From assembly GCA_951230915.1 (NCBI GenBank), contig OX579638.1:310001-374000 (forward strand): a stretch of DNA of 64,000 nucleotides, given 5' to 3'. The stretch is from Antitrichia curtipendula (Eukaryota > Streptophyta > Bryopsida > Hypnales > Leucodontaceae). Positions 1-35,788 of this stretch are shown here, in pieces (the stretch's first letter is position 1; every line of letters starts with the position of its first letter). The notes beneath the pieces were generated by a model, which saw nothing but the letters and a program-made list of their open reading frames with translations, was not told where the DNA came from and did not search any database. A program made the translations under genes and the position numbers.

Positions 1-971
1 CACTGCTGTAGAATAGGAGGAGCTAATTCTTCTATGTACTTCATTCGTATTGTATTAATAACCCATATTTAACTAATTATGGACAATTACGCGAAATATG
101 GACAAATTCATAGTTCAGCATGACCTTAAAAAAGAGAAGAACCTGATGAAAATGATGCAAAAGTGTCGGCTGCCCACCCACACATTGATCAGGTGAAGTG
201 CTTGTGTTTAGGACTTGGGTTCATGAAGGACAACTTGCTCCAAAAATGGATTAGAATAAGTAAAACAATTTGTCTGCAAACGTGACATCTTGATTGGAGA
301 AGAGATACCTATAACCGTGAACCCAAAACCGAGGCGGATCCCTCGACTCGACTTCCTTTGATATCCAAATCCTAACCAGAAGACAGGCCCCTTAATTTGT
401 ATAGGCTGGCAGCCGACAAGGAAGTCCATAGTAACGTGTGCAAACATACTAGTGAATCTGAAAGAGAATAGTGAGAATTCCGTAAGCGCAGTAAAGAGAA
501 GCAGATGGAAAATAGTCTCCAGAGGAGCATCATTTAAATAAGAACCACAGAAGTACAAATCCGATGTACGTCCCAGTGAATGGAAGCAGACAACCGTCGA
601 CAACAACTCTTAAACCCGTCTCTAAGACAGCGCTTCTACAAAATGGTAACCGTGTTGGCCGGCAGCCGATATATATATGGTAGAAAACAACCGCACCCGA
701 GTCCTGTATCCCCGCAGCTGAGTACTTGTGTAAATACTACAAAACAAAAAGTATTCTATCGGCTGGCAGCCGGCACCAGCACCCAAGTCCTATTTTCGAT
801 CAATAAAGCAGTAGTGCAAGACCTCATTAACATAAAGAACTCTATCGGCTGGCAGCCGACACCATCCTCAGAGTCCCTTATTCGGATCAGCTGAGCAGTG
901 GTGTAAAACCTCTGAAACATACAGTACCCTGTCAGCTGGCGGCCGACACAAGCCAGAAACTACTCCAGGCC
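1..971. other. Left flank and 5' end of the first large element, no gene
   Basis: I support no coding sequence here. The reading frames at 208-606 and 580-894 have no recognisable domain and run through copies of the palindromic repeat, which translate to phrases such as VGCQPI. The stretch holds the left inverted repeat (67-86), a second TATGGACAA motif just inside it near 97-106, and palindrome copies near 405, 653, 759, 844 and 931. These lie downstream of the minus-strand transposase gene, so this is probably its 3' trailer plus the transposon end. Confidence 0.5.
67..86 (+). repeat. Left terminal inverted repeat core
   Basis: The 20 bases ATTTAACTAATTATGGACAA are repeated exactly, in inverted orientation, at 13,810-13,829. 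A related TATGGACAA word follows about 15 bases further in, as expected for subterminal repeats. Confidence 0.7.
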
Positions 972-3900
972 TTAATCATCTCCTTCATCGTCTGCATCTC
1001 TGTCCATAGCTGCGCCCGCGGCCTCCAGATTCGCAATCGCAGCAGCAACCGAGGCCTCCGGTATCACATGAGACAGAGGAGGTCCTCTCTTTGCATGCGA
1101 GGGCATTCTGTGTGAGTACAGGACAATGTTAACATGAACCACCTGCGGAAGACGAAGTTCCTTCTGCCATCTTCGGGTCCAGCACTCTCTCGCGACCAGC
1201 GCCTTCCCCTCCTTCTTGGATTTCATCGGAGTCCACCATTCAATTTTGAAATTTCCGTAGGATGGCCCTGGAGTCATGACCACACACTCCAGGACCCGCC
1301 CTAGCCAAACAGGAAGGTAGTTGTTGTGACATGGACGACAAAGAACAAAGTCGCCTAGCAGGACATCCCTGAAGGGATTAAACGTCAATCTGGGCCTGTC
1401 CTTGGCAGGTCCACAGTATGGAGAGGGCTCTGCTTCGTCCTCCGGAGTGATGTCCAGTGGATTATTTGTGTCCACCCCGTCATCCTGAAATGCAGGTCCG
1501 TGATCCCTTGTCTAGTCTGAGAGTGGCCATAATCCCTCCCGGAGCAATGTTGGTGATAAAGGGAGCGGCGCATTAATCTCCGAGTGAATTCTTTCCCAGT
1601 AAGCCAGAATACCTGCCATTTCCTCTGCGTATCTCTTGTTTCTGGCCATTCCCATTTTCCAGAATTCTATGTACTTTGCTATTCCGTTTTTGATGAAGCT
1701 CTGTTTCTCAGAGCATTCGCTAGCCCTGGCCACTTCCTTGTCTGCATTTCTCTTCTTATGATTAATCTCGACCTTCCCCCAGAGTGCCTTGAATGGAACA
1801 GGTAGTGGGTCCCCCTGCGGAATTTTGGGATTCCCATCATCGTTTGCTGTCCACATTTTGACGGGGGGCCCCGAAGGAAGCCACGAAGCATCCGTGGTCC
1901 TCTTCTTGTATCTCATGAGCGGCCACCCTCGGTCCTCTCCCGCCTCCTCGACGTAGAACTTGAAGAGGTGTTTATCCCCAAGCCCGACGATCTTGTTGAC
2001 CCCATCATGATGGAAGCCCTTGAAGTATGATTTGAAGTCCGCCACCTCTTGAACGAACTCCGGTATGAAGGCGACGGTCTTCTGCGAGTCCATAAACGCC
2101 TTCATGAGATCAGCAAGGACGTAAGTGTTCTTCCTCTTGATTAGTTTTGAGAGATAATTGAAGTGCGCGTCAATGTCCTCGTGTGTATGACCTACAATAA
2201 GGAAACCCACAATTACTTCTTTGAATATACGCCTAGCCGTGAGTAACGAGTAGAATGCCATGAGGAATCGATTTTTATTGTCCTTCGCTGAGTTGTCGAG
2301 TTGCAAGAATAGTTTTCTAGGAAGTGGAACATGAGGTCGTCCTTTATTTGGAGTGCTCGTGACCTTGTCCGATGACTGCGGAATAGATGCGATGCATCTT
2401 GATTTTCCATACAGCAGAGCCTCAAAGAAGCTATTCTGGGGTGGAGTTGCAAAGAGAAGTTTGGATTCCCGAACCGGAGGCAACTCGAGAGCTCGCAGGA
2501 CCCTGCATAGCGACGATATTGTAAAATTTGAATCCCCCGGCCAGAGCGATGTGGAATAATGAGCATAGGCGCCATCGCCATGTCCATGTGTGAGCATGCC
2601 AGTACACGAGATTGGTATTTGTCCTAGCCCGGCGGTGGCCTTCGTGATCTGCTGCATCCTGGGAATCGCTGTCTTGGTGGTGTCCATTTTGTCATGAATA
2701 ATGCAGAGGAACTCCGAAGGATTCTGCACTGACTGCGCGGTCCATCTACTATATACATTTCTACAAGCGCGCTGATAATTGAGATGTCTTTCTCTGTCAT
2801 CGACCAGGGCCTGCCACTCATCACAACCTCTCGGATACTTTGCAATGAACTCTATAAGGAAGTCACACTCTGTACATTTCGAGAAATTGCTCCCCACCGC
2901 CTTGACCTCGACATTCTTGAAATGAGCTTTCCGCAGGCGGCTTATTGCTGACTGCGAGACCGGCTTCATATTGCATATTTCGTTGACCTGTAGAGCATAA
3001 CTCGACGGATAAGATCCCATGACGTGTGAGCTATCTGTATCGGCCGGCAGCCGACAGAACTGCAATGCACTGGCGAGACAACGAAGATAGAGCTAGGACT
3101 GAGATGCCAGGCTAAGAGACCGCAAGACTAGATTTGTTCGTATCGGCTGGCAGCCGACAGCAGCATCTACTCCGTCTTGCGGAAGAAGAGAGGAAGATAC
3201 TAGATACTTACATGATTAACTTGTTCGCGCATGTGATCCCAATTCATTGCAGAGGGGACGACCTTGAGATTGTCTACGCGTTTGTTTGCAACCAATCTGA
3301 ACTCGTTAGGCATCTGGTCCGCATTCTTGTTGATGATGGTCATGAGAGTTGCTTGAGCTTGAATCGTTTGCGGCCGTGGTCGTCGAGCCCCCGCGTTTCC
3401 GTGCGACCCGCTAATGGATCCTCCAACTGCCGCGGCCTTGTAAACATGATAGGCTGACCTGGAGACCCCGTGAATAATATACCATGCATTTTCGCATACA
3501 TCCGCATTTGCAAGAGTGATGTAGCTCTTCCCTGGAATCTGACCTGCGTGAAGTTGACTCTGCATCGCATATGCCATCTCCCTCCTCGTCTCGAAAGTGC
3601 AAGCATAGAACTTTCGTCGCAGAGTTCTCGTGGCCTCCCAGGGAAAGGTCTGGCAACATCTGAGCTTGCAGCACTTCTGGGAGCTGACCTTCCGTATGTC
3701 CATCTCCGAGGTCTTCATTTGCAGTTTGGACAAGCTTGCACGATCTCTGGGCATGACTTTCCGCTTGACCGACCGGTATGGATTCTTGGGTACCCCCTGC
3801 ATTCCGTCTTCGTCTGACTCGATGAGCTTAGCCGCCTCTGAGCAGAGCGTGACAATATCTGAGAGCAGCCTTCCCCCTTCCAATCTAGCGTGTATTAGCC

Positions 3901-5146
3901 TCCAGCGCATGGTTGTCATTTGCAGTTCCTCATGATCCGATACAAGCATGACTCCCACATCTGAATCCCCGAGCACGCCGTCGTCGCACGCTTCGTTTGG
4001 GAGGCAGACTTGTATCATCGCTCTTCCGAAGAAAGAGAAATCGTCATTGAGAAGTTCGCAATATTGATTCCTCCAAAGTGGTCTATCCGGAAATGGAAGA
4101 CCCGACTGCAATCCTTCCGCATTGCAATTGACGTCTCCACTTCTACTAGATCCCATGAAGGCGTCCCCGTGAACGAAGCTGTCAGTGGTGCTGGGCTCGG
4201 ATCCGCCATCGCCTGAAGTACTATGACCATGAACATTGCGAAGGTTATCATTGGACTCGCGGGTGTCCTCGTCGGACGAGTACAGCCTATCATCTCGGTC
4301 GTCTTTATCTGATGCGGTGGCAGGAATCCCCCGCAGTGGCGGCTCTACAAATTCCTCCAACACATCGGCCGAGCTTCCTCCACTTTCGCAGTTTACATGA
4401 AGAAGTGGATGCTGCAGATTGGTCCCCGGTAAGCATGTCGGCTGGCCGCCGACATGCCCGGGCGCCGCTATAGAAGACTGGATAGGTCTAACCTTGTAAC
4501 CATTCCAGAGAATTCTGTGCCCAACACAGAGTTTGAGTGTCATGAATTCTGGAATTTCGCAGTAGGCATTCAGATCCTTGAAGTCATCGACGACATGCAG
4601 AAGTTTGACCACCAGGAAGAAGCTGTGTGGAACACGGAAGCCATTCCAGAACCCCTTGGGAGAGCATTCGACAATAACGCCGACTCCCGCATAGAGCAGG
4701 TCCTTGCCCACAGTGTGCAGAAGAGCAACATCCATGTTGACCGTGAGTGAGAGGAACTGTTGTATGGGTTTTTCATCCGCGTTTACTTGTATCAACTGCC
4801 GGCCGACACCGGCGCAAGTTGACCCTTCCGACTCTGCGTAGGGATAAAGATTGTTCGCCCCCCACACGATTGACCTTCCTGTGCATTGGCGGAGGACAAC
4901 TAAGTCTCCGTCAGGAAACGGAATAGGCATGTCAAGATTATCTGGAACATCCAGGACATGGACGCGCACGAGGTACGGATCGCGACTCACCACCCTCTCT
5001 ACGATAGCCCGCCCCGCGTAATAGAGTCCTTCCAAGGTAAGAGCGACGACTACACCCTTCCGCAGCATCAGTCTTCCGGAACCTCCATTTTTTGTGAACG
5101 CTTCGATAGCCGTGGCATCCAGTTCCAAGTCAGTAGATGAACTCAT
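972..5146 (-). CDS. DUF7869-type putative transposase, two or more exons, internal TAG
   Basis: The protein resembles the eukaryotic family labelled DUF7869, from memory of its motifs. I start it at the ATG at 5146, since the upstream frame lacks an ATG. The model is exon 5146-3212, a GTAAGT donor, an intron 3211-3060 holding a palindrome, then exon 3059-972. Near residue 530 lies a cysteine-rich CCK..CCQ segment, followed by an 'ENAWYIIHGVSRSAYH' stretch. The second exon has a C..C pair, then three acidic blocks typical of an RNase-H-fold nuclease: HDKMDTTKT, LQLDNSAKDNKN and GHTHEDIDAHF. The C-terminal 170 residues (GDFVLCRP, VWLGRV, WTRRW) resemble the small beta-rich tail of this family. 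A single in-frame TAG (1512-1514) separates that tail from the rest, with no usable splice pair to remove it. The catalytic role is inferred, not shown. Confidence 0.65.
1512..1514 (-). other. In-frame TAG inside the DUF7869 gene
   Basis: Reading on past this stop, the same frame stays open for another 179 codons to the TAA at 972. The continuation encodes the expected C-terminal domain. The only GT donor nearby on this strand (about 1612) does not restore the frame with any nearby acceptor. The stop is a nonsense mutation, a readthrough site or a real end with a relic behind it. Confidence 0.75.
4412..4492 (-). other. Possible 81-nt intron carrying a palindrome copy
   Basis: On the minus strand a GTTAGA donor follows AAG at 4493, and CTGCAG ends at 4412 before CAT. 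The segment is 81 nt, in phase 0 and without a stop, so it could be exon or retained intron. It contains a near-palindrome copy at about 4438. I list it because all other modelled introns of this element carry the word. Confidence 0.35.
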
Positions 5147-5479
5147 GATTTTCAATCGGCGGGCAGAATCAACGATGATGGACCGTCTGTATCTGAGACC
5201 CCGCAAACCGCTTATCGGCTGGCAGCCGATACGACAAAGAACCCCCACCGAGACGACCTCTTAAACGTGATGGCGCTCCTAGTATTCTCTCACTGACGCC
5301 TAGTTCAGCTGGTATCGGCTGGCAGCCGACAGTGAGACCTGTACGGACAAACTATGGACCCTAAACCGCGCAGATCACATGGCATAACTCATTCAGGAAG
5401 CTAGATTTCAGCTGAACTAGTCCGACCTAGGCAGTCGGAATCCTGGAAAAGCAGAAATGACCCTGAGCGAGTCCTGATC

Positions 5480-5765
5480 CGTTAACAGCAGTCCACTGCA
5501 TTCCAATCATCACTGCAGTGCACTGCAGAACCATTAATCTCTTGCAGTGCTGTAAATTCTACTACGCATCAACCTGCATCTCTCTGCATCCCAGAAATCT
5601 ACTCCATCGCTCTAAATTGCCCCTGCAGCAACCTGCATTCCTCTGCATTGCCAGAATCTATTCCACTGCCCTACAATGCCCTGCCATCCACTTGCAATCT
5701 TCTGCATTCCAGTAATTTACTGCTCTGTCTTACAATGCACCCGCATGAACCTGCAATCCTCAGCA
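5480..5765. repeat. Degenerate ~60-bp CTGCAT-rich tandem repeat
   Basis: Four or five diverged units of about 60 bp share the theme 'CTCTGCATTCCAGAATCTACT' in scrambled forms (no two units identical), with recurrent CTGCA and TACAATGC words. It lies in the divergent promoter region and does not encode a protein. Confidence 0.5.
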
Positions 5766-6563
5766 GTCCACTCCATCCTGATGCTTCTTGGACGGCCTGA
5801 CCTTGTGCAAGAGGGAAACGAAATTAAAAGAATGAAATTCTCCCAAAACTGAAGCTAAGTGAGAAGGCCAGGGAAGCAATTTGGCGCTTGAAATTTGAAT
5901 TTGGAGGAGGATGTTGTTGTGGTGATTGCAAAAGAGACAGGTACGTCCGTTTGGGGATCGTGTTGGCAAACGTACGCATCTTTTTGCAATGAGTATTCGT
6001 CACTTTGATGTCCTTGGCCGTTAGTGGAGTACTTGTTTTGGATGAAGAACTCTAGATGGATGAAATGACTGGATGAATGTTCATCTTTTCGCCTGCCGGC
6101 TGGCAGCCGTCACATCATTTTGGGGGGGGGGTATACTCCCCTGGCCACTTTCATTTTCTCTCATTTGCAATCTGCCATTTGCTGGAGCTCTCTCTTCCTC
6201 TCTCTCTTCCTCTCTCTCCCTCTTTCTCTATTCCGGCTTGCGGCTGACAGTGCGTCGAAACCTTGAAGAGCAGCCGCCCCGCTGCCGTATTTTTTAGGGC
6301 ATCCTATATAGTTTTAGGTCAGCCGAGAACGTTTCTGGAGCAGCCGATATAGTTGGGGTCGGTGGCGCGCGAGTTTCTTAGCAGCCGACAGGAGACACAG
6401 CCCAGCCGATACTCGAGCAAAGTCTGCGGCGATGGCATCTTCCGAAGTCGCTCCTCAGAGGTAAATTCCTCATCCCATATCGGCTGGCAACCAATACAGT
6501 TTCCCCCACTTCGCATTATTGGTCTGTTCGCCTTTAGAATTGTAGTCCAGAATTGTCATTCTA

Positions 6564-6804
6564 TCGGCTGCCAGCCGACAGTAATTGCATCTGTCGATTA
6601 GTTTAGGGTACAGGAACTATGTCGGCTGGCAGCCGACATAGAGTTTCACCAGAGATCCATCAATTATTCAGGACGTGTCGGCTGCCAGCCGATATAGTAT
6701 TTCTTTAGAGATCCTTCCATTTTCTAGACGTATCGGCTGCCAGCCGATACATTACTCCCTTCCTAGTAATCATGTGCGGTTCAGTTCTGTCGGCTGCCAG
6801 CCGA
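6564..6804. repeat. Regular array of five palindromes at ~56-bp spacing
   Basis: Exact TCGGCTGNCAGCCGA copies start at 6564, 6622, 6678, 6733 and 6790, so the spacing is 58, 56, 55 and 57 bp. The second and third spacers share an AGAGATCC word and similar flanks, so this is a diverged ~56-bp tandem repeat in which only the palindrome is strictly kept. It sits 230-470 bp upstream of the start of the plus-strand gene, a position suited to a multi-site operator. Confidence 0.8.
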
Positions 6805-7030
6805 TACCACTAGGTCAAGCACTGAACATCTGGGTTCGCTGTGCAGGAAACCGACCCTCCTGGCCAGACTATTAGGCGAAGAAATTCCGCCCTCCGGGAT
6901 ATTGGGAGACGGGATTCTGCCTCGCGCAACCTGGAGAGCAAGCCCAGCAATCCAAGAGTGGGGACTCTGCTGGAGGGAGTCTCCTGACAAACTAGTGGAG
7001 ATTGCGTGTTCGTTCAAGCTGAAGGGGAAC

Positions 7031-10000
7031 ATGACTCCCGGCAAAGGCAATGTCATGTCAGTGATGGCTGTTGGTGATGACGTTCACGTCATGATCTGCC
7101 TGCCACCAGTCGGAAACCCAGGCGGCTCTCCGGACTACTTTGCGATTGAGTTGCCCGTCAACAAATGCACGGAGGAGGTGTGCGGTGAGAAGTCCATGGC
7201 GATGGGCATGACATTCGTGGGAAACACGCCAGCCGATGCCGATGACCTCGTGCAGGGATGGCAGTGCTTGGACACGGAGAGGGTGGAGCACAATGCGCTG
7301 GTCCAGCGAGAATTGCAGAAGGGCAAGAAGAAGGTGCCGGCGGGAAGAAAGAAAGTGCCCAACACACCGACTGAGGAGACCCAAACTGCTGTGGTGGAGA
7401 CGGGGTCTCCCAGCAAACCTAAGAGGAAGGGGAAGGGAAAAGACGATCCCGATAGGCCACTGACGCTGACCTTGGACGAGGCACTCCGTCGTGGGAATCA
7501 CCTAACCACAAAGACGAAGGAGAACGAAGTGAACGCCATTTATCAGGCGTTGGAAACGGGGCTGCTTCATGCCTTTCCTTACAAGAAGCAGAGACTTCCA
7601 GGTGTCATACCTTCGGAGAAGCTCCACATTGCACCTGACGAGCTGAAGTACCGGAAGATTGCGAGGGACCGCTTGGGTCAGGTAATTCCACTGAAATCTC
7701 TTGGTTCTGCTTGTTTCACTCTATCAACTTGTATTCGTTCTGTCGGCTGGCAGCCGACATATTTCTATAACTCTGAATTCCATTTCCCCTGTCATTGCAG
7801 GTGAAGACCATGTACAAGGGATACGGGTCCATCCGGAAGAAGCCCGAAATCCACGGCATTCCACTGAAGAGGGAGCCCCTGGAATCGGACAAGGGGCTGG
7901 ACGCGGTGATGGACGAATGTCCAGCGGAGAACGCTACTGCAATTATCGATGGCGTCCGTATGCCGTGGTGGAAGGCGCCTTATGTCCACTGGTACATTAT
8001 TGGCGGTCAACATACTGTCACTGCTTGCCGGGAACTTGCCGAACAACACCCCGACGGCTTAGATGCGAGGAAAGAATTGCTGGAGTTCGAGGTCATACCC
8101 GTCTTCAGTCGGGACCCAGACACACTCGTTCGGGTTTCAAACGCGTTGAATCTCAACATCGCAGAGAAGGTGGCCAAGGAAAACTTTTGTTCCTGCACAG
8201 AGATGGGGAGGGCGGCTTGGGTGAAGGCTGGATGTCCGGAACCACATCTCGGAGGAGGAAAGCCGTCACCAGAGTTTGAGGTATTTATCCATCATGTTGC
8301 ATCAATTTACAGATTGATTAATCTTGTGCTTCTCAGGTCTGGCTACTGTGTCGGCTGCCAGCCGATACAAGTCTTCCTTCTCTCGGTTTGTCTTTGTGGG
8401 CTGCCAGCCGATACATATTTCCTAATGAATAACTGTTGAGGACTTGCACTTATGCAGTTAGCAAAGATGAAAGTCATGGCGCACTTCGTCGATGAGAAGG
8501 TGTCATCTAAGCTGCCGCTCATCTTCATCAAGGAGGCGACCTGGACACTCTGGACGGAGGTGTTCGATGCGTGGGAGAATGGGGAGCTCATCGGTGATGA
8601 CGGGACCGTTCCGAAATCAATCGTCAATCGGAAACCTCTGACGCACATCACCAAGACAGATCTCACGCCAACGCTAGGGCTACGCGATTCGGACTTGTGC
8701 GAACGTGTGGATGATATCGTGAAACTGCGTGTGAGCATCAAGAACACGACCAAGGCCAAGTCCTCTGGGAGGATCACACTCTTCGACTGGTGCAGGGACA
8801 GGAAGCTGGACAGGGTCATCATGAACGAAATTATGTGGACCAGGAAGAAGTACCCCCTTCCCTGCAAGGATGCGGCTTGGGTCCCGTACCCAGACGAGGA
8901 CTGGCAGGAACTCGCGGACAAGGAGGGGTATTCTGCTGCAGTGGTCAGGAACGTCTGGAAGGACGTGAAGAAATTCACGGAGGGCAACAATTGGTTGAAC
9001 GGGCGCGTCAATCCGATGAATCCGACCACGGACAAGTCGGCTGACGGAAAGGCGCCGGGGGTCTTCTTCACCACCCTGAACAGCTACATCACTGCTCCAA
9101 TCCCTCCCCCGCTAGGGAGTCAGTCCGACCTGAAGTACCAATGTCGACTCGGGCAGAACATCCCGGAAGTGCTGGAGTCTCTTCGACAAAGCGTCGGGTC
9201 AGAAGGCCTTGAACCTGGCGACAAGAAATTTGTCGTGATCTTTGGCTACACAGAGAACGGCACACCGGTGACTGTCAACAAGAACAACTTCCTCGATATA
9301 TCGGAGATGGCTGAAGTGCCCGATGAAGAAGAAGGCTCTGACAATCCAGCCCGGGACTCGTACCTTCCACTTCCCATGATCTTCATCGGAAACTTGCGCT
9401 TCAGGGACTCCGTCGCCTTGGCCGCGTATTCTTCATCATCATCGTGGTACTATCACACGATTTACTACAACCCCTCGTCTCGGGGAGGCTTTCTCAAGGC
9501 AGACATTGAGGGGAGTCCCTTGGTCACTCTATCGCTGACCTTTCCGAAGCCGGAGGACAGATCTGAGATTTTCCCAGTCTTCAAGAGGTTCACTGGTATC
9601 AACAGGCCGCTCGAGTGGTACCAAAATGATGTCGAGGAAGAGGTCGATTGGAATGGAGGAATGTGCGGGGTTGGACATGGACTACTCGAGCAACTGATGA
9701 AGCCGACGCTCAAGTCCAAGGACGCCATCGTCATCAACGTCTGGGGCGGTGGAAACGTCACAGAAATCGCTCTGGTAAGACAATCTGGCCTTCGCTTAGT
9801 AGGAGAATCATGTTTAACCTTAATGTCTATCTGTCGGCTGCCAGTCGATACATCAACGTACTAACTTAAGTTCCTTGGGTCTGCAGAGGAATGGCCGTCC
9901 CGTTCTGGAGTTCGTTCGTGAGGAGGATGGACTGGCGAAAGCCAATGAGCGCGTCAAGGGAATGAACCTCGTCAGCGCGGCGTATGTAGTACCGCCCGCG

Positions 10001-10612
10001 CGTCCGCTCGCATTACCGGAGCCAGAGACCGGTGCCGGTTCGGGTCCCGGGACGACGTCGCCTAAGGCGTTTCCACAGCAGCCTACACCGTTGTCATCAC
10101 CATTGTCTCCCCGAAATCCGGGAGGCTCTGCAGGTCCATCTCGACCTGAGCTGCTGACCGGGACAGTCGATATACCGAAGCCCACCGCGCGACCCATACT
10201 CTTGGAGGAGTCGGATAGTGATGAGGACGATGTCGAGATGCTCGTTCGTAAACCGCGGAGACGGAGACCTGACTCTCCTCTCCACAATCGGACGCCGTCG
10301 CCGGAACCAAGGGAGGACGCGCATCCCACGACTCCGACTCCGATCAACTCGGACGCCATGGTTGTGGATCTCCACGCCGCTCCACAATCCGAGGAGATCC
10401 TGCGTGCGGAAAGGGCACCCGTGAACCTCTACGGGGCGGAGACTGTCACAGCCGTAGGTAGGCCAACGACCTTGGCTGATGTCGCTGTCGGCTGCCAGCC
10501 GATACAGGACGAGGCTTCACAGGGTGAGCTGCGACGCGGAAGGAGCAAATCTGCGACAGAGAAATCGAACTCCACTTCGGTAGACTCACGCCGCTCGGGA
10601 CGGATCAAGTAG
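7031..10612 (+). CDS. ParB-like plus DNA-methyltransferase-like protein, multi-exon
   Basis: Model: 7031-7681, 7801-8280, 8458-9774, 9887-10612. All junctions are phase 0, with GT..AG introns of 119, 177 and 112 bp, giving 1057 residues. I use the first ATG; the frame is open upstream without one. After a lysine-rich linker (near residue 130), exon 2 has YIIGGQHTVTACREL followed by a conserved-looking NALNLNIAEK. This matches the ParB/Srx-type box (DGQHR-like). Near the exon 3/4 junction, VINVWGGGNVTEIA then NGRPVLEF and ANER resembles motif I and its sequel in beta-class N4/N6-adenine methyltransferases, with the usual DPFxGSGTT changed. ParB-methylase fusions are known in phages and bacteria. 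I see no clear DPPY motif (only YYNP), so activity is doubtful. The C-terminus is proline/arginine-rich with basic clusters. An in-frame TAG ends this model; see the next exons. Confidence 0.6.
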
Positions 10613-10733
10613 AAGCGGAACCGAGCGACCAGGGACTCAGACGAGGGAACGGCTTCCAGGGACATGCCGGAGCAGGACTTCCCAAATGAGAGAATGTCTC
10701 CTGAACCAGCATCTAAACGGACGCGGATTAGAG
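10613..10733 (+). CDS. Open continuation after TAG, basic tail
   Basis: After the TAG at 10610-10612 the same frame stays open for 40 codons, opening KRNRATRDSDE and ending KRTRIR before a GTTTGT donor at 10734. That donor is phase 1 and joins in frame to the acceptor TTGCAG at 10969. The ParB/methylase-like gene may therefore once have read straight into the FCP1-like exons. Confidence 0.4.
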
Positions 10734-10969
10734 GTTTGTAGGCGATAGACATGCTCAGGGATTGGGGGGGACTATCTACAAGAGCTCGTTCGATGTTAGT
10801 GGTGTTGGGCTCAGACTTGTTCGTAGGAACTTGTCTGTGGGAGCCTCCATGTATGCAGTCTAGAGGACGTATGTAGTGTGTCGGCTGCCAGCCGATACAT
10901 GCGAGTCATGTTGTCCGATTGCTCACTAAATTGCATCTCATGCGCTCTATACTTCATCTTGTATTGCAG

Positions 10970-13185
10970 ATGATGATTCTCGTCCTTCTGATTTTTCTGA
11001 GGACAACGTGTCCGGAGGTGGTGACGAGTGTGACCAGCCGGCTCTCGATTCGAGACTAAACCCCTCGATCATTGATCCGCCACAGGTAGCGTCCCCAAAA
11101 TTGTTTCTCTTCTTAGAGCTCCAAGGAACTCTAATGTACTATGAGCCGCTCATTATCAAAGGGGCGAGTATGCATCAGAGGTCGCAAATAAGGGAGAGGC
11201 CTGGACTTAGGGAATTCTTGCAATTCTGTCAAAGGCAAGACATTGTAATCATTTTCTGGTCGGATCTACCCCTTCACATTCTGAAGCAGCGTCTACACAA
11301 TATGAAGTGGAAGGTGCCGGAGATCGATGACGATTGCAATGCCTTCGGACAGGAATGCTGTGACGAAAGCGCGTATCGAGATCCAAAAAGTCCAGGCCGT
11401 CCGATTTACTTGAAACGTCTTGCTCGAATTATCGCATCCCAACCGCTGCTGTACAACAATGGGGCATCGATCTACAATTCACTGATTGTAGATCACATAC
11501 CCTTTAGGAACGTCTTGAATCTGCCTTACAACGCAGTTCATCCAGCCGCTTGTACAATGTACTCGGAGAAATCTAAAAAGGCTGGGACACTCCCATTCCT
11601 CCAGTCTACGATGATATCGTTCATCGAGAAGTTTCTCTCGTCAGGACTCTCGGTCCCGGATTTCTGTGAAAGAAACTTGGCCATCGGGCTTCCGCGATGC
11701 ATGCCGAACTCTCCCTTGCATAATCTCTACGTCAAGGTTACGCCTGAGTGTCAGAAGGGATTTGAGGTGCCCTATTCGGAGGAGGAAGTACGTGCCATGG
11801 GAAGTACTAGCTGAGGACGCCCAGCAACCTTGCGGAGGAGGGCGCTTCGTCTATCGGCTGGCAGCCGACACAGATGTTGTAAATAGTGTATATGCTCTGT
11901 AGATATAGAATTTCTCTTCTAGACTTTGTAAATTTTTTGTGAAGACATTTTTGTAAGCCAAATACCTGTAATAAAGACATTACAGGTCGGGAATCCGGCT
12001 AGACAAGGCGGATGTCCCTCTCGCTCTCGAAGCATTCCAATGTTTCCTTCGAGAGTTTGATAGTTTGGCCACGGACATTGGAATCACGTGTCGTGGTTGT
12101 TTCAGGTGTAGGTGTTGAATCTCCACTGCACAGTCCATGCTACACGTAATGCCAGTTCAAAATGGTAGGTGGACGATTTCAGATAATGATTACGTGTAGC
12201 ATTGATTGTGCAGTGGAGGTACACCGCTTACACCCGGACTTCGGCAGTACAGGATTACAGGGTTGCTCTGTGACTTTGAACTCTCGAGGGATACATGGGA
12301 ATGCTTCCGGAGAGAGCGGCTCTGCCATGTTTGGCCGGGGATGTCTCCGTCTTTTTCAAATTTTGAACTCTCCAATATCTCGGCTACAGTTGAATGGATC
12401 ATGGAATGCTTGCTGCTTTACTGTTTGGGGTCAGGACTGCATATCGGCTGGCAGCCGATATAGTAGCTGCATGTATTCTCTGCTCTTTATATCGGTCTCT
12501 TAATCTTCGGGCTTCACATTTCTGTTCTGTTCAGGAGTCTACTAATGGTCAACCACATTCATTCAAGAAATGTGTCGTTCTTTGCGTCACGGGACTGCTT
12601 TGTTTTCTCGACACAAAGATCGAGGTGGACAAGTGGGACCCGCACAGAAACGTCATCAAAAGACCAGGGCTCGTAGCAATGTTCTCTACATTGTTTGAAA
12701 AGTTCCACGTTGGAATTTGGTCAAAGATGCCAATGAAACAACTTAGACCGTTGCTGGCGCACCTACTTCCAAAACATGTCATAGAAAGGATAGCATTTAT
12801 ATATGGCAGAGAATATTGTGTAGATAGTCAGAAGTTCCCGTGGTCATACAAAATGCTCGATACGCTTTTCAGAAAGGGACCATCCAAGGAAATCTGTTCA
12901 GCCGACCAAGTGCTCATGGTCGACGTTTGCCCACTTTCGCTCAGGAGGACACCGGATACGGCGTGCTACATTCCGCTGCCTTTTAGAGGAGATTTGGACT
13001 TCCCAAATGACAGTAGAGTTATTCCAAATATTTCAACAGACATTATACCATTCATTTATCCCTTGGAGGAGTATGAGTCAGTCTCGGAATACCTCAAAGT
13101 CGCAAAGAGGCCGGGACAGTTACACTATGAAGTTGCACAGTCCATCAAGTATGGGAAGCCTAGGTGGAAAGGGATTTTCTGGTAG
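10970..13185 (+). CDS. Tandem FCP1/HAD-phosphatase-like exons, catalytic motif degenerate
   Basis: Model: 10970-11787, intron 11788-12534 (GTACGT..TTCAG, phase 0), 12535-13185. The first half has LFLFLELQGTL where FCP1/SCP phosphatases carry DxDGT. It then has RPGLREFLQFC, IIFWSD and VDHIPFRNVLNLPYNA, in the family's order. The second half repeats the plan: LCVTGLLCFLD, KRPGLVAMFSTL, GIWSKMP and LMVDVCPLSLRRTPD. Both lack the nucleophile aspartate pair, so these are probably non-catalytic domains. If the first exon is not spliced it ends at 11814. An AATAAAG signal near 11,972 could then end a shorter transcript. The intron holds palindromes at 11854 and 12444. Upstream joining to the ParB/methylase-like gene is possible through the phase-1 junction at 10733/10970. 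Confidence in the fold is moderate; no function is claimed. Confidence 0.5.
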
Positions 13186-13809
13186 GAAATTCTACACTGT
13201 CAGTTGGCGGCCGATACACTTCTACAGGCGGGGCTCAGTTCTATGACATTTTCATATGTCATTTATCATCTGCTGGAGAGACTTCAGCTGCTGGAGGCAC
13301 TTCATTATATTTTTCACACGTTCCAGGTTTTTCGGCTTCATCGACATCCTAATTTTTTCGGCCTATGCTCAGGATTGTCTTGGAAGGTCACTAGGATATT
13401 CCCGGACACCGGATACTCATAACATGAACCATCATACCGGATGTAGGCAGTATGTTAGACTGATCTATAGTGAATTGCACTTCTTGCTGCAGATGGTTGT
13501 TTTTGCTGCCGGTGTAGATAGTTTAGGAATTCTACCTAGTTCAGACAATGAGTTCTGGCTTGCTTTGGAGTATCGGATGGCAGCCGACAATTGGCCCAGA
13601 ATTAGATCCCGTCTTTTTAGGAGCTTGTATGATAAGGATTTCTGTTGGTTACTCAACTGTTTATAAACTGGGTACTCTTATTCTTCATATCTTGTGGTGT
13701 TTTATTTCTCTGCATGCTGCTTTTATTTGTGTTCAATGCTTATTACTGCACTCAGAATATTGAATTCTAGTTTATCGGCTGTCTGCCGATTTAATTCTGG
13801 ACTGTGGAT

Positions 13810-13829
13810 TTGTCCATAATTAGTTAAAT
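13810..13829 (-). repeat. Right terminal inverted repeat core
   Basis: Exact reverse complement of 67-86. The last palindrome copy (degenerate, near 13,773) lies just inside it. AT-rich sequence without the palindrome follows immediately outside. Confidence 0.7.
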
Positions 13830-14133
13830 TTCTGTTTAATATACATTTTGTACGTTTGAAATGATTTGAAGCATATGGAATGAAAAATGTATGCATTCAT
13901 GAAGTTTGGAAATATGTATCATTTCTCAAATGTTTTGAAGTAAGAAGGTATGAATGGCCAAGAACTACAACGTTGACCTGAAATGTAGTAACGCATGTAT
14001 GAATATGAAAACATTTTTTTCTAATTCTTATTTTTTTTCCATTTCTGCCCCATCTTTTTTATGTTTTTACTTTTCCATTTTTTTGAACTTCCTTTTTCTA
14101 TGTTTTTTCGTTTTTTTTTCTTTTCGTTTTTTT

Positions 14134-28132: not shown

Positions 28133-29890
28133 TGTCGCAGCACAGGATAAGCAATTTCCCAGTTATGCTTCCAAAAATCACTCTAGAGCATAACAAAGTG
28201 ACTCTAAAGATCGAACCCACGAGATTCTGTGAAGTATTTAACCTAATTTAGTTTCCAAGCTCTTGTCAGCATCTAATTCTCCTTTCCCGGTTTTAGATCT
28301 CGCAAACCGGAAAACACAACAACACGGAAATTATACGGATACTCTCGTACTCTTCCGGTTTATACCATTACCGGATCTCCAGGATTCCCACTATTCCTAG
28401 ATCTTCTCTCTTCCGGTCCTGGTCTAGTAATCCGTTCACACTCATCTATCAAAACTCTTACTTTCCTCCGGTTTAGTTTTGCCTCTGTTTTACCCTCAGA
28501 GGGTTCGCCGCTTGATTTTGAGAGTGGCAGGCCCGCCGCTCCTTCCGCGAATTATAGTGGCTGAAGACCCACTTTCAACTCTCTCGCTCCCTATGCTAAA
28601 CTGGATCCGGTTTGGTCCTTCACAGCATTCCGGGTCAACACCCGGTTTGCAGGTCACACAAAGACCCCCCGTACGATCCTCTCATACTACAACGACCTTG
28701 GCGCTCGATTCCAACCGTACGAAGCTTGGCGGTTGCAAGTGTACCCGTCCGTTCCAACGACAACTAAAATTATTCCGTTCGCCCAAATCGGCAATGAGAC
28801 CTCACAGAAGTTCAGACACTCAACCGGATTTCCCACCCAAGAGTTCTAGCGCAACTAAGGAATCCATCCCTATCCGCCTAGCCTAGCAACGGCTTTCTCA
28901 ACCGGAACATCAACCTTAGAGACGCTGAGGAACTGGAATCCACTCCCAACCTTTCACCACCCACTCACATGTACTTTACAATTGAAAACGAAAACACCAA
29001 GGGGAGAAACCCGCTCCCAACCAACTTGTGTCCGCCTAACTCCTTATCATGCAACCCTGCCAAAACACACGCGGGAGAGGTACAAAACAAGAAGAGAATG
29101 GAGAAGACAAAACTAGATTGGATGCAAAGACTCTCTCTCATCTCCTCCCCGGAGACTGGTTTATATATATTTTCAAATTTACAACGGCAAAAAGAGCGCC
29201 AAAAATCCCGCGCAGAAAATCCGGTCTCATCCTATCCGACCGGTTTCCATTTCCGGTCCGGTCCTTCCTCCTATTTTACAGATTACCACTCCTAAGATAT
29301 TTTACAATAAACAACTCCTAACTATTCTGCCATTCCCTCAGCAAGCGTAGGACTCTTGGGTTCCGCCTCCAACTCGTCAAATACTTCCTGCAAGTTCCGG
29401 TTCCGCTCCCCCTCAACAGGATTCGAGGCGACAGACTCCGGTGCGGAAGTCAGCTGAATTGGGTTCGTTGGGTTGGTCTTACCCTTCTTAGACTGGGGAG
29501 TCACGTCCTTACCCGTCTTCGGAATGGGTACATCCGGAAAAGATTCCGGCAAGGAGATATCTGAAAGATTAATCTCCTTGTACAAGGACCCGGTCAGCTT
29601 CTGACTGCTCTCCTCCATCTGCTTGGCTGCTTCTCGCGCCCCCACCAGTGTCGTCTCCACCTGCTCGGAGAAATCCGTCAAAATCCGGACCAACCCTAAT
29701 CCACGTCAGCACTTTTCCGTTCCAGATCGAATCCGTTCCAAATACTTATTGGACTGATCGATCCGCTACCCTCTTTCTGTAACTTACTTTCAGCTTTTCC
29801 TTACTTCTTATACGGATCCGGTTACCTAATTTAGATTTCCGCTCCAATATTTAAGGTAACCAAAAACAACAAAAGATTCTTATTGCGACA
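28133..29890 (-). repeat. 3' LTR of the gypsy element (left in window)
   Basis: 1758 bp, near-identical to 35789-37546 at a constant offset of 7656. It carries a minus-strand TATATAAA (29160-29167) and, on the plus strand, an antisense open frame (28,479-28,886) kept in both LTRs that I regard as incidental. Confidence 0.95.
29322..29693 (-). pseudogene. LTR-embedded ORF fragment related to the 19-21 kb ORF
   Basis: The 123-codon open stretch on the element's sense strand lies in U3, without an ATG at its head (TTG, preceded by TGA). Its start, VRILTDFSEQVETTL, resembles MILVDFTARIEKTL of the broken ORF at about 20,490. That similarity suggests the LTR engulfed the tail of a related accessory ORF. 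The same stretch recurs at 36,978-37,349 with a few changes. Confidence 0.4.
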
Positions 29891-29893
29891 TTA

Positions 29894-29902
29894 CCCCCTC
29901 CT
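29894..29902 (-). other. Polypurine tract
   Basis: On the minus strand AGGAGGGGG lies 3 bases from the start of the 3' LTR, the position of the plus-strand primer in LTR elements. Confidence 0.8.
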
Positions 29903-29928
29903 CATCTGTGAGCGTCCCCGCGAACACA

Positions 29929-31650
29929 CTAAACTTCCTCGGATGAGGAAGCTTCAGCATACATCTTTACTCTCGATCCGTTCACCCGGGTGTCAAGCCA
30001 TTGTCCCTGCAGATTTTCAAGCTGCAAGGATCCGTTCTGGAACACTCGATTGACTCGGAAGGGCCCCATCCATCGTGTATGCAATTTACCCGGAAAATCC
30101 TTGTGACGGTTGTCGTAAAGAAGAACTAATCCGCCTTCTCGGATTCCGTGATCCATCGGAAGCTTCCGATCGTAGTCTTGCTTGCGCTTGCTCTGAACTC
30201 CCAAGGTTCTTTCTAGTGCCATGTTCCGGATTTCTTCCAGTTCCTCAATAGCGAGGAGACGTGGAAGAGTATCCAGTCTCGATTCCGCATTCCGGGCAGC
30301 TATCACTCGGAATGTTTCCACCTCCAACTCCACTCCATGTACGGCTTCCTGTCCAAAAACCAAAAAATATGGTGTTTTTCCGGTTGTCGACTTCTCCGTG
30401 GTGTTGTACGCATGGACTGCTGAAGGTAGCTTCCGGTCCCAATCCGTCTTGTGAGCGGAAACCATTTTGTTCAAGATCTTGCCTACAATTCCGTTCGCCC
30501 GTTCCGTCAATCCGTTCGCCTTGGGATTGTATGGAGTTGTCTTCCGGTGTTTGATAAGATACTTGTTGGTTAGGTCCACAATGACATCATTGAGGAAATG
30601 GGTCCCTCGATCACTGACCAGCTCCAAGGGATGACCAAAACGCATAAGGATTTCTTCAAACAAAAAGTTTGCTGAAGTTTCCGCATCATTCTTCCGGGTC
30701 GCCTTGGCCTCCACCCATTTGGTGGCGTAATCCGTGGCTAAAATAATGTATCTCTTCTTCCGTGCACTGACCGGAAGAATAGGTCCAATAAAATCGATTC
30801 CCCATTTTTCGAACGGAGCAAGGGGAATAATAGGAGTCAGTGGCCAGTGATTCCGGAAGGATGGCGCTCCTGTCCGTTGACACTGATCACAACTCCGATC
30901 GAAATTTCTAACATCTCTATGTAAATACGGCCACCAGTATCCGGCAGACCGGATCCGGTTTACTGTACTGACAAAGGCAAAATGTCCTCCTGAACTTCCG
31001 GCATGAAGGGCTTGGATCACCTTCTTCCGTTCTGGAGGTTCTAAACATCGCCTGAGAATGTCATCCGTTCCTAATTTAAACAGGACTCCTCTAATCAACG
31101 TGTAAGGAGCTATTTTTCGTTGAAAAATTTCCTTTTCCTCCCGGTTCATCCCTTCCGGATACCTAGAGTTAGTAAGATAATCTATGATATCCTGGAACTC
31201 GGAGATAGATTCTTGGCTAAGGTGAAAGACCGCAGTCAAAAGAAGATCCGGGTCATCTTTGACTACTGACTTTTCTGTTCTATCCGGGAACTCATCCGGA
31301 AACTCAGCGAAGATATCCGCTACTAATTTCATTCCCCTTTGTCTTGACAGATAATCCGCATTCACATTTGCTTTTCCGGATTTTACTACCACTTCGTATG
31401 TAAACTCTTGTAACAGCAAAATCCATCTAGCAATCCGGCCTGACAAATCCGGTTTGTTCACAAGGTACTTTAAGGAATCATGATCCGTATGAAAAATTAC
31501 CTTGTATCCAAGTAAGTAATGTCGGAACTTCTTACAGGAGTACACCACTGCTAACGCCTCTCGTTCTGTAGTAGTGTAATTCCGTTCCGCCACACTCATT
31601 TGTCTGCTGGCGTAGTAAATCGAATTTTCCCGCTTCTCTTCGTCATATTG
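29929..31650 (-). CDS. Gypsy pol, second part: RNase H and integrase
   Basis: This continues the pol frame after the TGA at 31651. It opens QYDEEKRENSIYYASRQM and runs through AERNYTTTEREALAV and FHTDHDSLKYL (RNase H). An H..C..C region (SCDQCQRTG) is the integrase zinc-binding domain. The integrase catalytic acids sit in KWGIDFIGPI, LVSDRGTHF and KANGLTERANG (D, D, E). It stops at 29929 shortly before the polypurine tract. No chromodomain is visible. Without bypass of the upstream TGA this part would not be made as a fusion. Confidence 0.9.
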   Translation of the reverse strand, partial: QYDEEKRENSIYYASRQMSVAERNYTTTEREALAVVYSCKKFRHYLLGYKVIFHTDHDSLKYLVNKPDLSGRIARWILLLQEFTYEVVVKSGKANVNADYLSRQRGMKLVADIFAEFPDEFPDRTEKSVVKDDPDLLLTAVFHLSQESISEFQDIIDYLTNSRYPEGMNREEKEIFQRKIAPYTLIRGVLFKLGTDDILRRCLEPPERKKVIQALHAGSSGGHFAFVSTVNRIRSAGYWWPYLHRDVRNFDRSCDQCQRTGAPSFRNHWPLTPIIPLAPFEKWGIDFIGPILPVSARKKRYIILATDYATKWVEAKATRKNDAETSANFLFEEILMRFGHPLELVSDRGTHFLNDVIVDLTNKYLIKHRKTTPYNPKANGLTERANGIVGKILNKMVSAHKTDWDRKLPSAVHAYNTTEKSTTGKTPYFLVFGQEAVHGVELEVETFRVIAARNAESRLDTLPRLLAIEELEEIRNMALERTLGVQSKRKQDYDRKLPMDHGIREGGLVLLYDNRHKDFPGKLHTRWMGPFRVNRVFQNGSLQLENLQGQWLDTRVNGSRVKMYAEASSSEEV

Positions 31651-31653
31651 TCA
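31651..31653 (-). other. In-frame TGA between reverse transcriptase and RNase H
   Basis: GSIL is followed by TGA and then QYDEE, in a segment where gypsy RNase H proteins read straight through. The frame is unchanged on both sides. Probably a nonsense mutation in this copy (CGA to TGA would suffice). Confidence 0.85.
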
Positions 31654-34041
31654 TAGAATCGACCCCAGACACCAACCGGATGCATCGATCGTAACGTGGA
31701 ATTCCTTCCCCCAATCCGGAACGGATAGGATCGGAGCTTTGGCCAGCTGGGTCTTCAAATCCTCGAAGGCCTGCTGTCTCTTTCCGGTCCAAACAAACTC
31801 CGTATCCTTCTTGAGTAGTTCCGTCAATGGGATAGCTCTCTTGGCGTATCCGTCAATGAATCGGCGGTAGTAGCCTACACATCCAAGAAATCCACGAATT
31901 TCTTTCACACTTGTTGGAGGTAACAGGGTAAGCATTACCCTGACCTTCTCCAGATCCGCCTGTAATCCGGTCCGGCTTACTATGTGACCGAGTAAGATTC
32001 CGGATCCCATCCCAAAGAAACACTTTCCCGGATGTAGTTTTAAACTCGTTTCACGGCATTTCTGGAACGTCTTCCGCAAACACTCAAGATGAGTTTCCCG
32101 GTTGCTAAAAACCGCAAAGTCATCAATGAAAACTTCAATGAAATGTCGGAGAAAATCCTTGAAAATATCCATCATTAGGCGTTGAAATGTTCCGGGCGCA
32201 TTGCAAAGACCAAATGGCATCCGGGTGAACGCAAAAGTTCCCCACTCCGTAGTGAATGTGGTCTTCAGCTGATCGCACCACCGAATGAACACCTGGTTGT
32301 AACCGGAAAACCCATCTAGGAAGCTGTAGCACTCGTGTCCGGCTACATGATCCAAGATGATGTCCGTAAATGGTAAGGGAAAGTAATCCTTCTTCGTGGA
32401 GGTGTTTAACTTCCGGAAATCTTGACAAACCCGGATCTTGACTTTCCCATCCGCTCCAACCTTCTTTGGAACAACTACTATGGGAGAAACCCACTCGGAA
32501 TTATGGACTGGGTAGATGAATCCCGCTTCCAATAACCGATCGATTTCTTCTTTGACCATCAACGAGTATTTCGGATTGAGCCGATACTGCCGCTGTCGGA
32601 CCGGAACGGATCCTTCCATTAGGTCGATATGATGCTCTCCTAGGTGCGGAGGTATTCCCTTCAAGTCAGATGGCTCCCAAGCAAAGACGTCGAGATACTC
32701 CTGTAGAAGTTGAATGTAACCGGATTTCTCCGTTTCCGTTAGGAGTTTGTTAAGATAAAAACTCCTGTCCGGTCTTACATTCACTTTTTCATAGTCAGTG
32801 GGTGATACAACCGGTTTGACCTTTTCCGGATACGTTTCCTCTGGATGGGACGCTAAATTTCCCCAACCGGATTCTCCCATTTCCGTCCCACCAAACGGAA
32901 GATTTCCGATCTCGATTTGTCGAGCGATCCACTCGTTTGTCAGCGGAACACTTGACTCCCCCAAAGATCGATCTTCCACCACCGGTTCCTTAGCTCCTTC
33001 TGGTTCATGCTCAACCACAGCATTGGAAAATCCATAGCATACCTCAGATTGATGTTCGAATGGATCTATAAAATAGCTAGTGACGGAATCTTCCGGTTCT
33101 GACCAATCCGTGGTATAGCCATCCGAGTCGCTGGTTTCTCCTAAATGCTCCTCCGTCGTCCAAGGAATCCGGATGGGAGGTTTCCCTATCACCAACTCCT
33201 TGGCTCCCCAATCTACTAATACTTGCGCGGAATATAACCAAGGTCTACCGAGTAGCATAGGGAAGGGTCTACCTTTATGAACACGGATAATCACATAGTT
33301 CAACAGATAGTCTTTTCCACCAATCCGGGTTGGTACTTGTGAAAGCTTACCAACCGGATTCACTCGGGACTGGTCCGCCATCCGGAGCACTTGTTCCGTG
33401 GCTTCAAACGTGGTGAATCCCAAGTCGAATGCTGTATCCTCCAGCATCAGGTTGACTCCAGATCCGCCGTCAATGGGCACCTTCGGAATCGAACAACCCT
33501 CAATCTCCACAGTGACTTCTGGGGCTCCGGCATCTTCCGGTTGAGAGAAGTTGACGGCGACTGCCGGAAGCTTGACTCTCTTCTTCCGTTTCCGGGTCCA
33601 GGCGTCTCGGATAAGCTTCTGGTACGTCATGTTGTCATGTAGAAGTTGTCCGATTGTCACATTCGCCTTTTGATCCTTAATATCCTGAATGATGTTGTAC
33701 TCATGTGCACTCACATCCGGATTGATAAACACTGGGGTGTTATTGAAACTCACCCTCTTCCTAATAGGAGAAGCATCCGGTCCAGAAATTTCCGTCCGGA
33801 TCTCCGCACTAATGTCAATCGGAATTCGGTTCCTGTCTACCCCTTCCTCGGTGTGAACATTCTCCATTTCCACTTGCTGATGTCGAGGAGGTGAAGTAGA
33901 ATCACTACTCGTTTCTGGTTTCCTCCTATTCTTCTTCTTTCTTCCTCGAGTAGAATGTTCGGGCTGGTTCCTCGTGGAACTACGGGTGGATACTCGGTTG
34001 ACTATATTTTCCGTTTCCACCGGCAGCACCACTTCGCGCCG
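31654..34041 (-). CDS. Gypsy pol, first part: protease and reverse transcriptase
   Basis: Same frame as gag, opened directly by the gag TGA, with no ATG near its start. The protease shows DGGSGVNLM near residue 190 and a LLGRPWL flap-like segment, a plant gypsy form. The reverse transcriptase has VCQDFRKLN, FSGYNQVF, RMPFGLCNAPGTFQR and the catalytic FIDDFAVF, then HPGKCFFG and FLGCVGYYRRF. It ends at the RNase H start IDASGWCLGSIL. Absence of an independent start and frame identity with gag argue for expression as a gag-pol fusion by stop-codon readthrough. Confidence 0.93.
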
Positions 34042-34044
34042 TCA
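34042..34044 (-). promoter_or_regulatory. gag stop TGA in TGA-CGG context, likely readthrough site
   Basis: The gag frame ends AAA TGA CGG CGC and pol continues in the same frame. UGA followed by CGG is one of the established efficient plant-virus readthrough contexts. A downstream hairpin may help but was not computed. The alternative is a simple nonsense mutation in an originally fused ORF. Confidence 0.6.
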
Positions 34045-35649: not shown

Positions 35650-35760
35650 CAGTAAGAGGTCCGGATCGAAACTTGTTTATCAAAAAGAGGAAGTTCTAGA
35701 AATCAACACAACTACTGACTGAGCTACCGGAAACCACTTTCAAGTTAAATAGCTTTAGAA

Positions 35761-35778
35761 TCCCCGGCAGCGGCGCCA
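35761..35778 (-). other. Primer binding site, tRNA-Asp type
   Basis: On the minus strand TGGCGCCGCTGCCGGGGA begins 10 bases after the 5' LTR. It is complementary to the 3' end of plant tRNA-Asp (TCCCCGGCAACGGCG plus CCA) with one mismatch. Confidence 0.85.
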
Positions 35779-35788
35779 GATTTTTGTA

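Follow-up and report, generated by a model that had tools for sequence, protein, structure and literature searches.

VANDAL, a long multi-gene DNA transposon of Arabidopsis, encodes beside its transposase an accessory protein, VANC. As reported, VANC binds to motifs found in introns and in intergenic and terminal regions, and causes loss of methylation; the motifs are short, dense in non-coding parts, nearly private to each family and different between related families (PMC5735166). Fungal DNA transposons carry an accessory TET/JBP gene that may also counter silencing (PMC12730594), and retrotransposons of charophytes and dinoflagellates are reported to have captured cytosine methyltransferases (PMC5890265). 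Here we describe a 13,777-bp DNA transposon in the moss Antitrichia curtipendula. It lies in a 64,000-bp stretch of contig OX579638.1, which we call the window (C6:310001-374000 in the 400-Mb host genome that we searched). Like VANDAL, it is a long plant element in which an accessory gene (gene B) stands beside that of a predicted transposase (gene A), and its non-coding parts are dense in a short palindrome, or dyad, that is nearly private to its family and differs in related families.

The differences from these systems are considerable. The fungal transposons combine an active-type dioxygenase with known superfamilies (KDZ, EnSpm, hAT and others), whereas degenerate domains and DUF7869 are found here, and the methyltransferase retrotransposons, which likewise carry DNA-methylase-type genes and belong partly to the green lineage, are retroelements with C5-methyltransferases. 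VANC carries DUF1985/DUF287, neither of which Pfam detects in the gene B exons scanned; gene B has ParB-like, methylase-like and FCP1-like parts instead, and would be the protein that binds the dyads. The transposase of VANDAL is of the MULE type, as against DUF7869 here. A literature search at title and abstract level, with Repbase and subscription journals outside its scope, returned no description of this element, though an earlier name for it is conceivable, and DUF7869 is named in no paper of the literature searched.

Ends, copies and the divergent gene pair

The initial annotation proposed a transposon on the strength of a perfect 20-bp inverted repeat enclosing two divergent multi-exon genes. 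The repeat is real (67-86 on the plus strand, 13810-13829 on the minus strand; two matches in the window at up to 3 mismatches, against 0.02 expected). It is, however, only the inner part of a 27-bp terminal inverted repeat (TIR), and the termini shown by the copies, at 60 and 13836, lie 7 bp further out. We attempted to read both ends of 13 copies. Eight were readable; in the other five the right end did not fall within the stretch where we expected it. All eight share the left terminus AACCCATATTTAAC... and the right terminus AAC(A/G/T)GA(A/T)ATTTAA(C/G)..., and all eight have a 4-bp target site duplication (TSD) at one fixed boundary, each a different one: TAAT, GATA, TTAG, AATG, TTGA, ACAA, GTAG and TTGT. 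Crossed pairs of flanks never agree (0 of 56), and the duplications vanish when the boundary is moved by 1 to 4 bp. These termini and duplications define the element as 60-13836, and establish that it has moved in the past.

Further copies are plentiful. The exact 20-mer occurs 57 times in the genome and its reversed control not once. A match to gene A or gene B, among those entered in the comparison, lies within 25 kb of 29 of the 57 (random placement gives a mean of 0.3 and a maximum of 3 in 1,000 draws). The other 28 have none, so short or decayed copies are common. Among eight 3-kb loci fetched around TIR matches on C1 (L011-L018), two have a second, inverted TIR 244 bp away. One of these TIR-only copies, L016, is flanked by the duplication GTGG at the same boundary as the full copies; we read no duplication at that boundary in the other, L017. 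Neither contains the palindrome at up to 2 mismatches.

The gene pair recurs as well. Of 88 scored gene A matches (a lower bound) we entered 26, one row per place at 68% identity or more, and of 101 gene B matches 33, omitting additional fragments of a locus already entered and most of the weaker ones. For 19 of the 26 gene A copies a gene B match lies no more than 50 kb away, in 17 cases divergent as in the window. Of the two remaining pairs, one is a tandem copy on C5 with a second gene B match, divergent, about 7 kb off; in the other, on C10, the two matches lie 35 kb apart. An exact outward-facing TIR lies within 6 kb on the 3' side of 19 of the 26. No relatives were found in viral contigs, and the liverwort Riccia sorocarpa is the only organism named in a listing of 120 relatives.

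Gene A is predicted to be the transposase. DUF7869 is the only Pfam family past its cut-off in exon 2, as in seven relatives, and the structure prediction is a confident RNase-H fold with ordered D-D-E/D residues and a BAH/SH3-like tail that may read chromatin; Foldseek alone gave no match under 0.001. The three acidic blocks singled out at the outset as transposase-like (HDKMD, LQLDN and HTHEDID) are nearly invariant in an alignment of 67 sequences: D101 is kept in 48 of the 50 sequences that cover this position, D233 in 66 of 67, and E272 in 61 of 66, with D in three more. Exon 2 is under purifying selection (dN/dS 0.07-0.12; saturated synonymous sites left 3 of 13 comparisons with an extreme value or none at all). 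The element would thus belong to a DUF7869 superfamily of DDE/D cut-and-paste transposons, in which gene A is predicted to catalyse excision and insertion.

A distant link of gene A to the transposases of CACTA/EnSpm, hAT, MULE, mariner, piggyBac or KDZ is conceivable, although DUF7869 is the sole profile that passed. CACTA/EnSpm elements are also long plant elements with TIRs and two proteins, but they have transposases of the Transposase_21 family, CACTA ends and 3-bp duplications; the AACCCAT... ends and 4-bp duplications here do not fit that type. The piggyBac and Kolobok target is TTAA, which is none of the eight different 4-mers observed.

Family-specific dyads

All 30 window sites of the palindrome TCGGCTGSCAGCCGA at up to 3 mismatches fall inside the element, between 166 and 13789, as first described. 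Allowing no more than 2 mismatches leaves 27 sites, 26 of them outside the modelled coding sequence, which occupies 63% of the element (binomial 1e-10). If exon 5 were longer, the site at 10488 would become a second coding palindrome. The exact palindrome occurs at 217 places in the genome, against 4 for its reversed control. Among 50 places listed, 48 lie in copies with TIR matches and two stand alone. Moreover, 24 of the 25 fetched gene A loci with at least 68% identity (L019-L043) carry it at up to 2 mismatches. The twenty-fifth, L040 (68%, intermediate), has in its place a symmetrically changed variant, TCGGCTAGTAGCCGA, three times in the intron before exon 2. Neither result named at the outset as refuting the transposon was therefore obtained: further copies do have these ends, and the close gene A loci fetched carry the palindrome or its symmetric variant. 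L040 also has 12-bp and 19-bp tandem arrays (715-1076 and 563-703) adjoining its gene A relative.

The palindrome is found beyond this genome. In predicted proteins of metagenomic relatives it appears, translated, in introns at the same positions as in the window: after gene B exon 4 in P0121, P0123 and P0131 (37-49% identity) and before gene A exon 2 in P0001. Ten strict peptide matches were obtained, two of them in ordinary coding sequence (P0030, P0038). The remaining eight fall in 5 of 139 proteins (the four named and P0126, whose five-residue match is weak), compared with a mean of 0.31 and a maximum of 3 in shuffles.

More distant relatives have palindromes of their own. Most gene A matches, 61 of the 88, have 52-54% identity. 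We fetched five of these (L044-L048) and compared palindromes across all 30 gene A loci, L019-L048. None of the five has TCGGCTGSCAGCCGA. Family 2 (L044-L047) has instead a CATCGTGAGATCTCACGATG-like palindrome at 4 to 6 sites per locus, a type absent from the 26 other loci. Family 3, which rests on the single locus L048, has a CTGGAGSSCTCCAG-like palindrome at four sites; this type also has one site in each of two family 1 loci and one among 11 control pieces of the window. The sites of the families occupy corresponding positions, namely the intron that precedes exon 2 and the stretch 3' of the gene. As a check from another copy, we matched an element on C218, in three pieces, allowing up to 6 mismatches. 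The family 2 type lies within its gene A intron (CATCGGGAGATTTCCCGATG and CAACGGGAGTTCTCCCGATG) and next to its gene B exon (CAACGGGGGATCTCCCGCTG); one piece, L096, from across that exon, lacks a family 2 site.

These patterns come from repeat searches and the cross-family table. Because the family 2 and 3 consensus patterns were read by eye from, and so fitted to, their own loci, the shuffle means (0.01-0.015) overstate their significance. In family 2, 5 to 9 of 10 base pairs are symmetric, compared with a mean of 2.5 for 20-mers of L044.

A dimeric DNA-binding protein encoded by the element would account for dyads that are specific to a family, lie throughout the non-coding sequence and persist as the introns diverge.

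Gene B and its degenerate domains

Gene B is the likeliest candidate for that protein. The initial annotation gave it a ParB-type box, a methyltransferase-like motif I and FCP1-like domains, and saw in it a DNA-modification-like protein that could act in silencing escape or end recognition. The FCP1-like domains have sequence support and the ParB-like one a weaker resemblance, whereas the methylase reading comes from structure prediction, with a null profile comparison.

Exon 3 contains WYIIGGQHTVTAC, which we take to be a ParB-type box. It is 79-80% conserved in most copies. Its resemblance to ParB is weak (tblastn E 8; hhalign probability 21%), and no Pfam family, ParB included, matches exon 3 at E up to 10. 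Exon 4 closes with NVWGGGNVTE, which resembles a methylase motif I and whose glycine loop is retained in most copies. The fold matches of this region are all amino-methyltransferases among the 50 rows shown, and it is modelled, at low confidence, as one of the beta class, in which motif IV precedes motif I. A sequence-profile comparison of exon 4 with eight phage ParB-methylases gave no match; PHROGs and NCBIfam gave none that convinced; and a search of the PDB by sequence found nothing meaningful for exon 4 and no match for the FCP1-like open reading frames (ORFs) or the gene A and B profiles. The catalytic motif D/N/S-PP-Y/F/W is not recognisable in the ten copies read, nor in the alignment of relatives; at what we read as its place stands F-(A/G/E)-Y.

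The FCP1-like domains tell a similar story. The NIF/FCP1 match of ORF 12397-13182 is above the Pfam cut-off (E 7e-8, 32.8 bits against 21.8) and that of ORF 10933-11811 below it (E 0.011, 15.9 bits). The nucleophile motif of FCP1/NIF phosphatases is DxDx(T/V). It is absent from both: the first domain has LELQGT, IEVSGT, LEVQGT and similar, the second VVLCV(T/A)GLL. By their sequences, then, the methylase and phosphatase domains look catalytically dead, which makes DNA modification unlikely as the activity of gene B. Gene B is under purifying selection: dN/dS is 0.02-0.24 across exons 2-4 and the FCP1-like parts, with 5 of 10 comparisons for exon 3 giving no value or an extreme one owing to the same saturation as in gene A.

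Other ORFs of 460-486 residues resemble gene B at 27-29% identity (C1:88548, C1:56347927, C2:41868, C8:176646, C8:25603250 and many unplaced contigs). Several sit close to the ends of chromosomes, and many are on small contigs; they may form another family that prefers such places.

Coordinates of the element's features in the window
Feature	Position	Strand	Remark
Left TSD, TAAT	56-59	.	4-bp duplication at this boundary in all 8 copies read at both ends
Left TIR, 27 bp	60-86	+	holds the 20-bp repeat 67-86
TCGGCTGSCAGCCGA sites, 27, up to 2 mismatches	402-13789	.	
Starts of sites 1-14	402, 655, 759, 845, 932, 3040, 3143, 4438, 5215, 5315, 6096, 6480, 6564, 6622	.	
Starts of sites 15-27	6678, 6733, 6790, 7743, 8351, 8397, 9834, 10488, 10881, 11854, 12444, 13573, 13775	.	
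Gene A exon 2	972-2987	-	DUF7869; predicted RNase-H/DDE core with a BAH/SH3-like domain at the C-terminus; stop codon in frame at 1512-1514 in this copy
Gene A intron	2988-3211	-	palindromes at 3040 and 3143; other palindromes there in other families
Gene A exon 1	3212-5146	-	N-terminal part, Cys-rich and, in our reading, helix-turn-helix-like region; start codon 5146
Upstream region common to both genes	5147-6431	.	palindromes at 5215, 5315 and 6096
Gene B exon 1	6432-6460	+	
Gene B exon 2	6847-7681	+	
Gene B exon 3	7801-8280	+	ParB-like box
Gene B exon 4	8458-9774	+	helical part, then region modelled as beta-class amino-methyltransferase
Gene B exon 5	9887-10457	+	end inferred from an open splice and from where copies stop aligning
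Gene B exon 6	10970-11814	+	first FCP1-like domain, without DxDxT
Second FCP1-like domain	12535-13185	+	further gene B exon or separate gene
Right TIR, 27 bp	13810-13836	-	
Right TSD, TAAT	13837-13840	.	

The last gene B intron also holds a MITE-like 46-nt inverted repeat, 85% complementary with a 38-nt spacer (12105-12234). Outside the element, the window contains a Ty3/gypsy-type element on the minus strand (28431-36542; gag, reverse transcriptase, RNase H and integrase), flanked on both sides by the same 151-residue open frame, probably in two long terminal repeats, and pieces of a plant CACTA-type transposase gene (43441-48193; Transposase_21, DUF4216 and DUF4218). Scans of the whole window with Rfam at gathering cut-offs and for tRNAs found nothing.

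What the dyads may be for

VANC has just such a layout of private motifs, and we take the same logic to be the likeliest here. An element-encoded protein would bind the dyads across the non-coding parts of the element; the dyads would be a family-specific address tag; and the protein would act on copies of its own family, keeping them open and transcribed against silencing. That the binder is gene B seems to us probable, if not strongly so. An anti-silencing effect, argued from the analogy, is a possibility to which we give somewhat less than even weight. The reading as a whole, in which gene B or another protein of the element recognises the dyads of its family and counters silencing, we hold to be slightly favoured. 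Of the two roles initially guessed, silencing escape is thus preferred by inference and end recognition is not.

Several observations weigh against this reading. VANDAL motifs, as described in PMC5735166, are 9-bp, non-palindromic and tandemly repeated in one orientation, unlike the dyads here. Symmetry is imperfect in family 2, and a blind scan for dyads, which gave 5 sites in family 1 loci, up to 4 in window controls and 2 in shuffles, found neither the family 2 nor the family 3 palindromes. The model of gene B exon 4 is poor (pLDDT 56). Finally, the in-frame stop within gene A means that the window copy is broken.

Other explanations have to be considered. CACTA elements have subterminal repeats bound by the transposase, and the palindromes could be sites of this kind, for end recognition or transpososome assembly. 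The comparison is a natural one for a long two-gene plant element, and several sites do fall within 1 kb of either end (402-932; 13573 and 13775). However, the sites are spread all over 13 kb, in the introns of both genes and in their common upstream region, and the 244-bp copies lack them. That L016 nevertheless carries its 4-bp duplication speaks against any dependence of transposition as such on the palindrome. We consider this explanation unlikely.

Two further proposals keep gene B as the binder and give it a ParB-like action. Phage ParB-N6/N4 methyltransferases such as Gordonia phage Stormageddon gp207 have the same order of parts, a ParB-like box (GNHTVKAIRNLAEKYPDD in gene B, GGQHTVTACRELAEQHPDG in the phage protein) followed by a beta-class amino-methylase. 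The phage protein, by contrast, has DPPY and a Pfam N6_N4_Mtase match, whereas the methylase part of gene B has neither such a motif nor sequence similarity. In one version a ParB-methylase of phage type might have been rebuilt, on a eukaryotic transposon, into a counterpart of ParB/parS: gene B would load on family-specific dyads and spread over kilobases of the element, its dead modules would shield the copy from silencing marks and machinery, and dyad and protein would co-diversify between families; this we regard as rather unlikely. In the other, which we rate as quite improbable, gene B acts as ParB does at parS, loading on the dyads, spreading, and coating or segregating the copy. In ParB, too, a box precedes a helical part; the gene B box is strongly conserved and palindromic sites occur in many copies. 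The match to ParB is weak, though, and we know of no phage ParB-methylase of this kind that binds parS.

Very little likelihood attaches to gene B as an active DNA amino-methyltransferase that marks its own DNA at the dyads: the fold matches and the largely kept glycine loop would agree with it, but a recognisable catalytic motif is missing from copies and relatives alike. Slightly harder still to credit is that the palindromes are RNA hairpins in introns and untranslated parts. All ten sites on the gene A side (402-5315) do have the centre base in a single orientation relative to transcription. On the gene B side, though, the 17 sites are mixed (9 C, 7 G and 1 T). The inner bases, which a 1-nt centre would keep from pairing in RNA, are nevertheless symmetric, and in L040 their change is symmetric too. 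That gene B and the palindromes are functionless passengers, as the 7 of 26 gene A copies with no gene B match within 50 kb might suggest, deserves almost no credence, since purifying selection on gene B already disfavours it and the palindromes are kept at like positions across families while the introns diverge.

The element is of interest beyond this locus. Pfam DUF7869 gains a likely role, as the transposase of elements with 4-bp duplications. A protein under strong selection whose ParB-methylase and phosphatase domains seem dead is a surprise open to test, and the families with different dyads offer natural specificity swaps. Beside VANC, the element would add a second and unrelated case in which a transposon carries a private sequence tag specific to its family, and with two such cases transposon self-recognition looks like a recurrent strategy.

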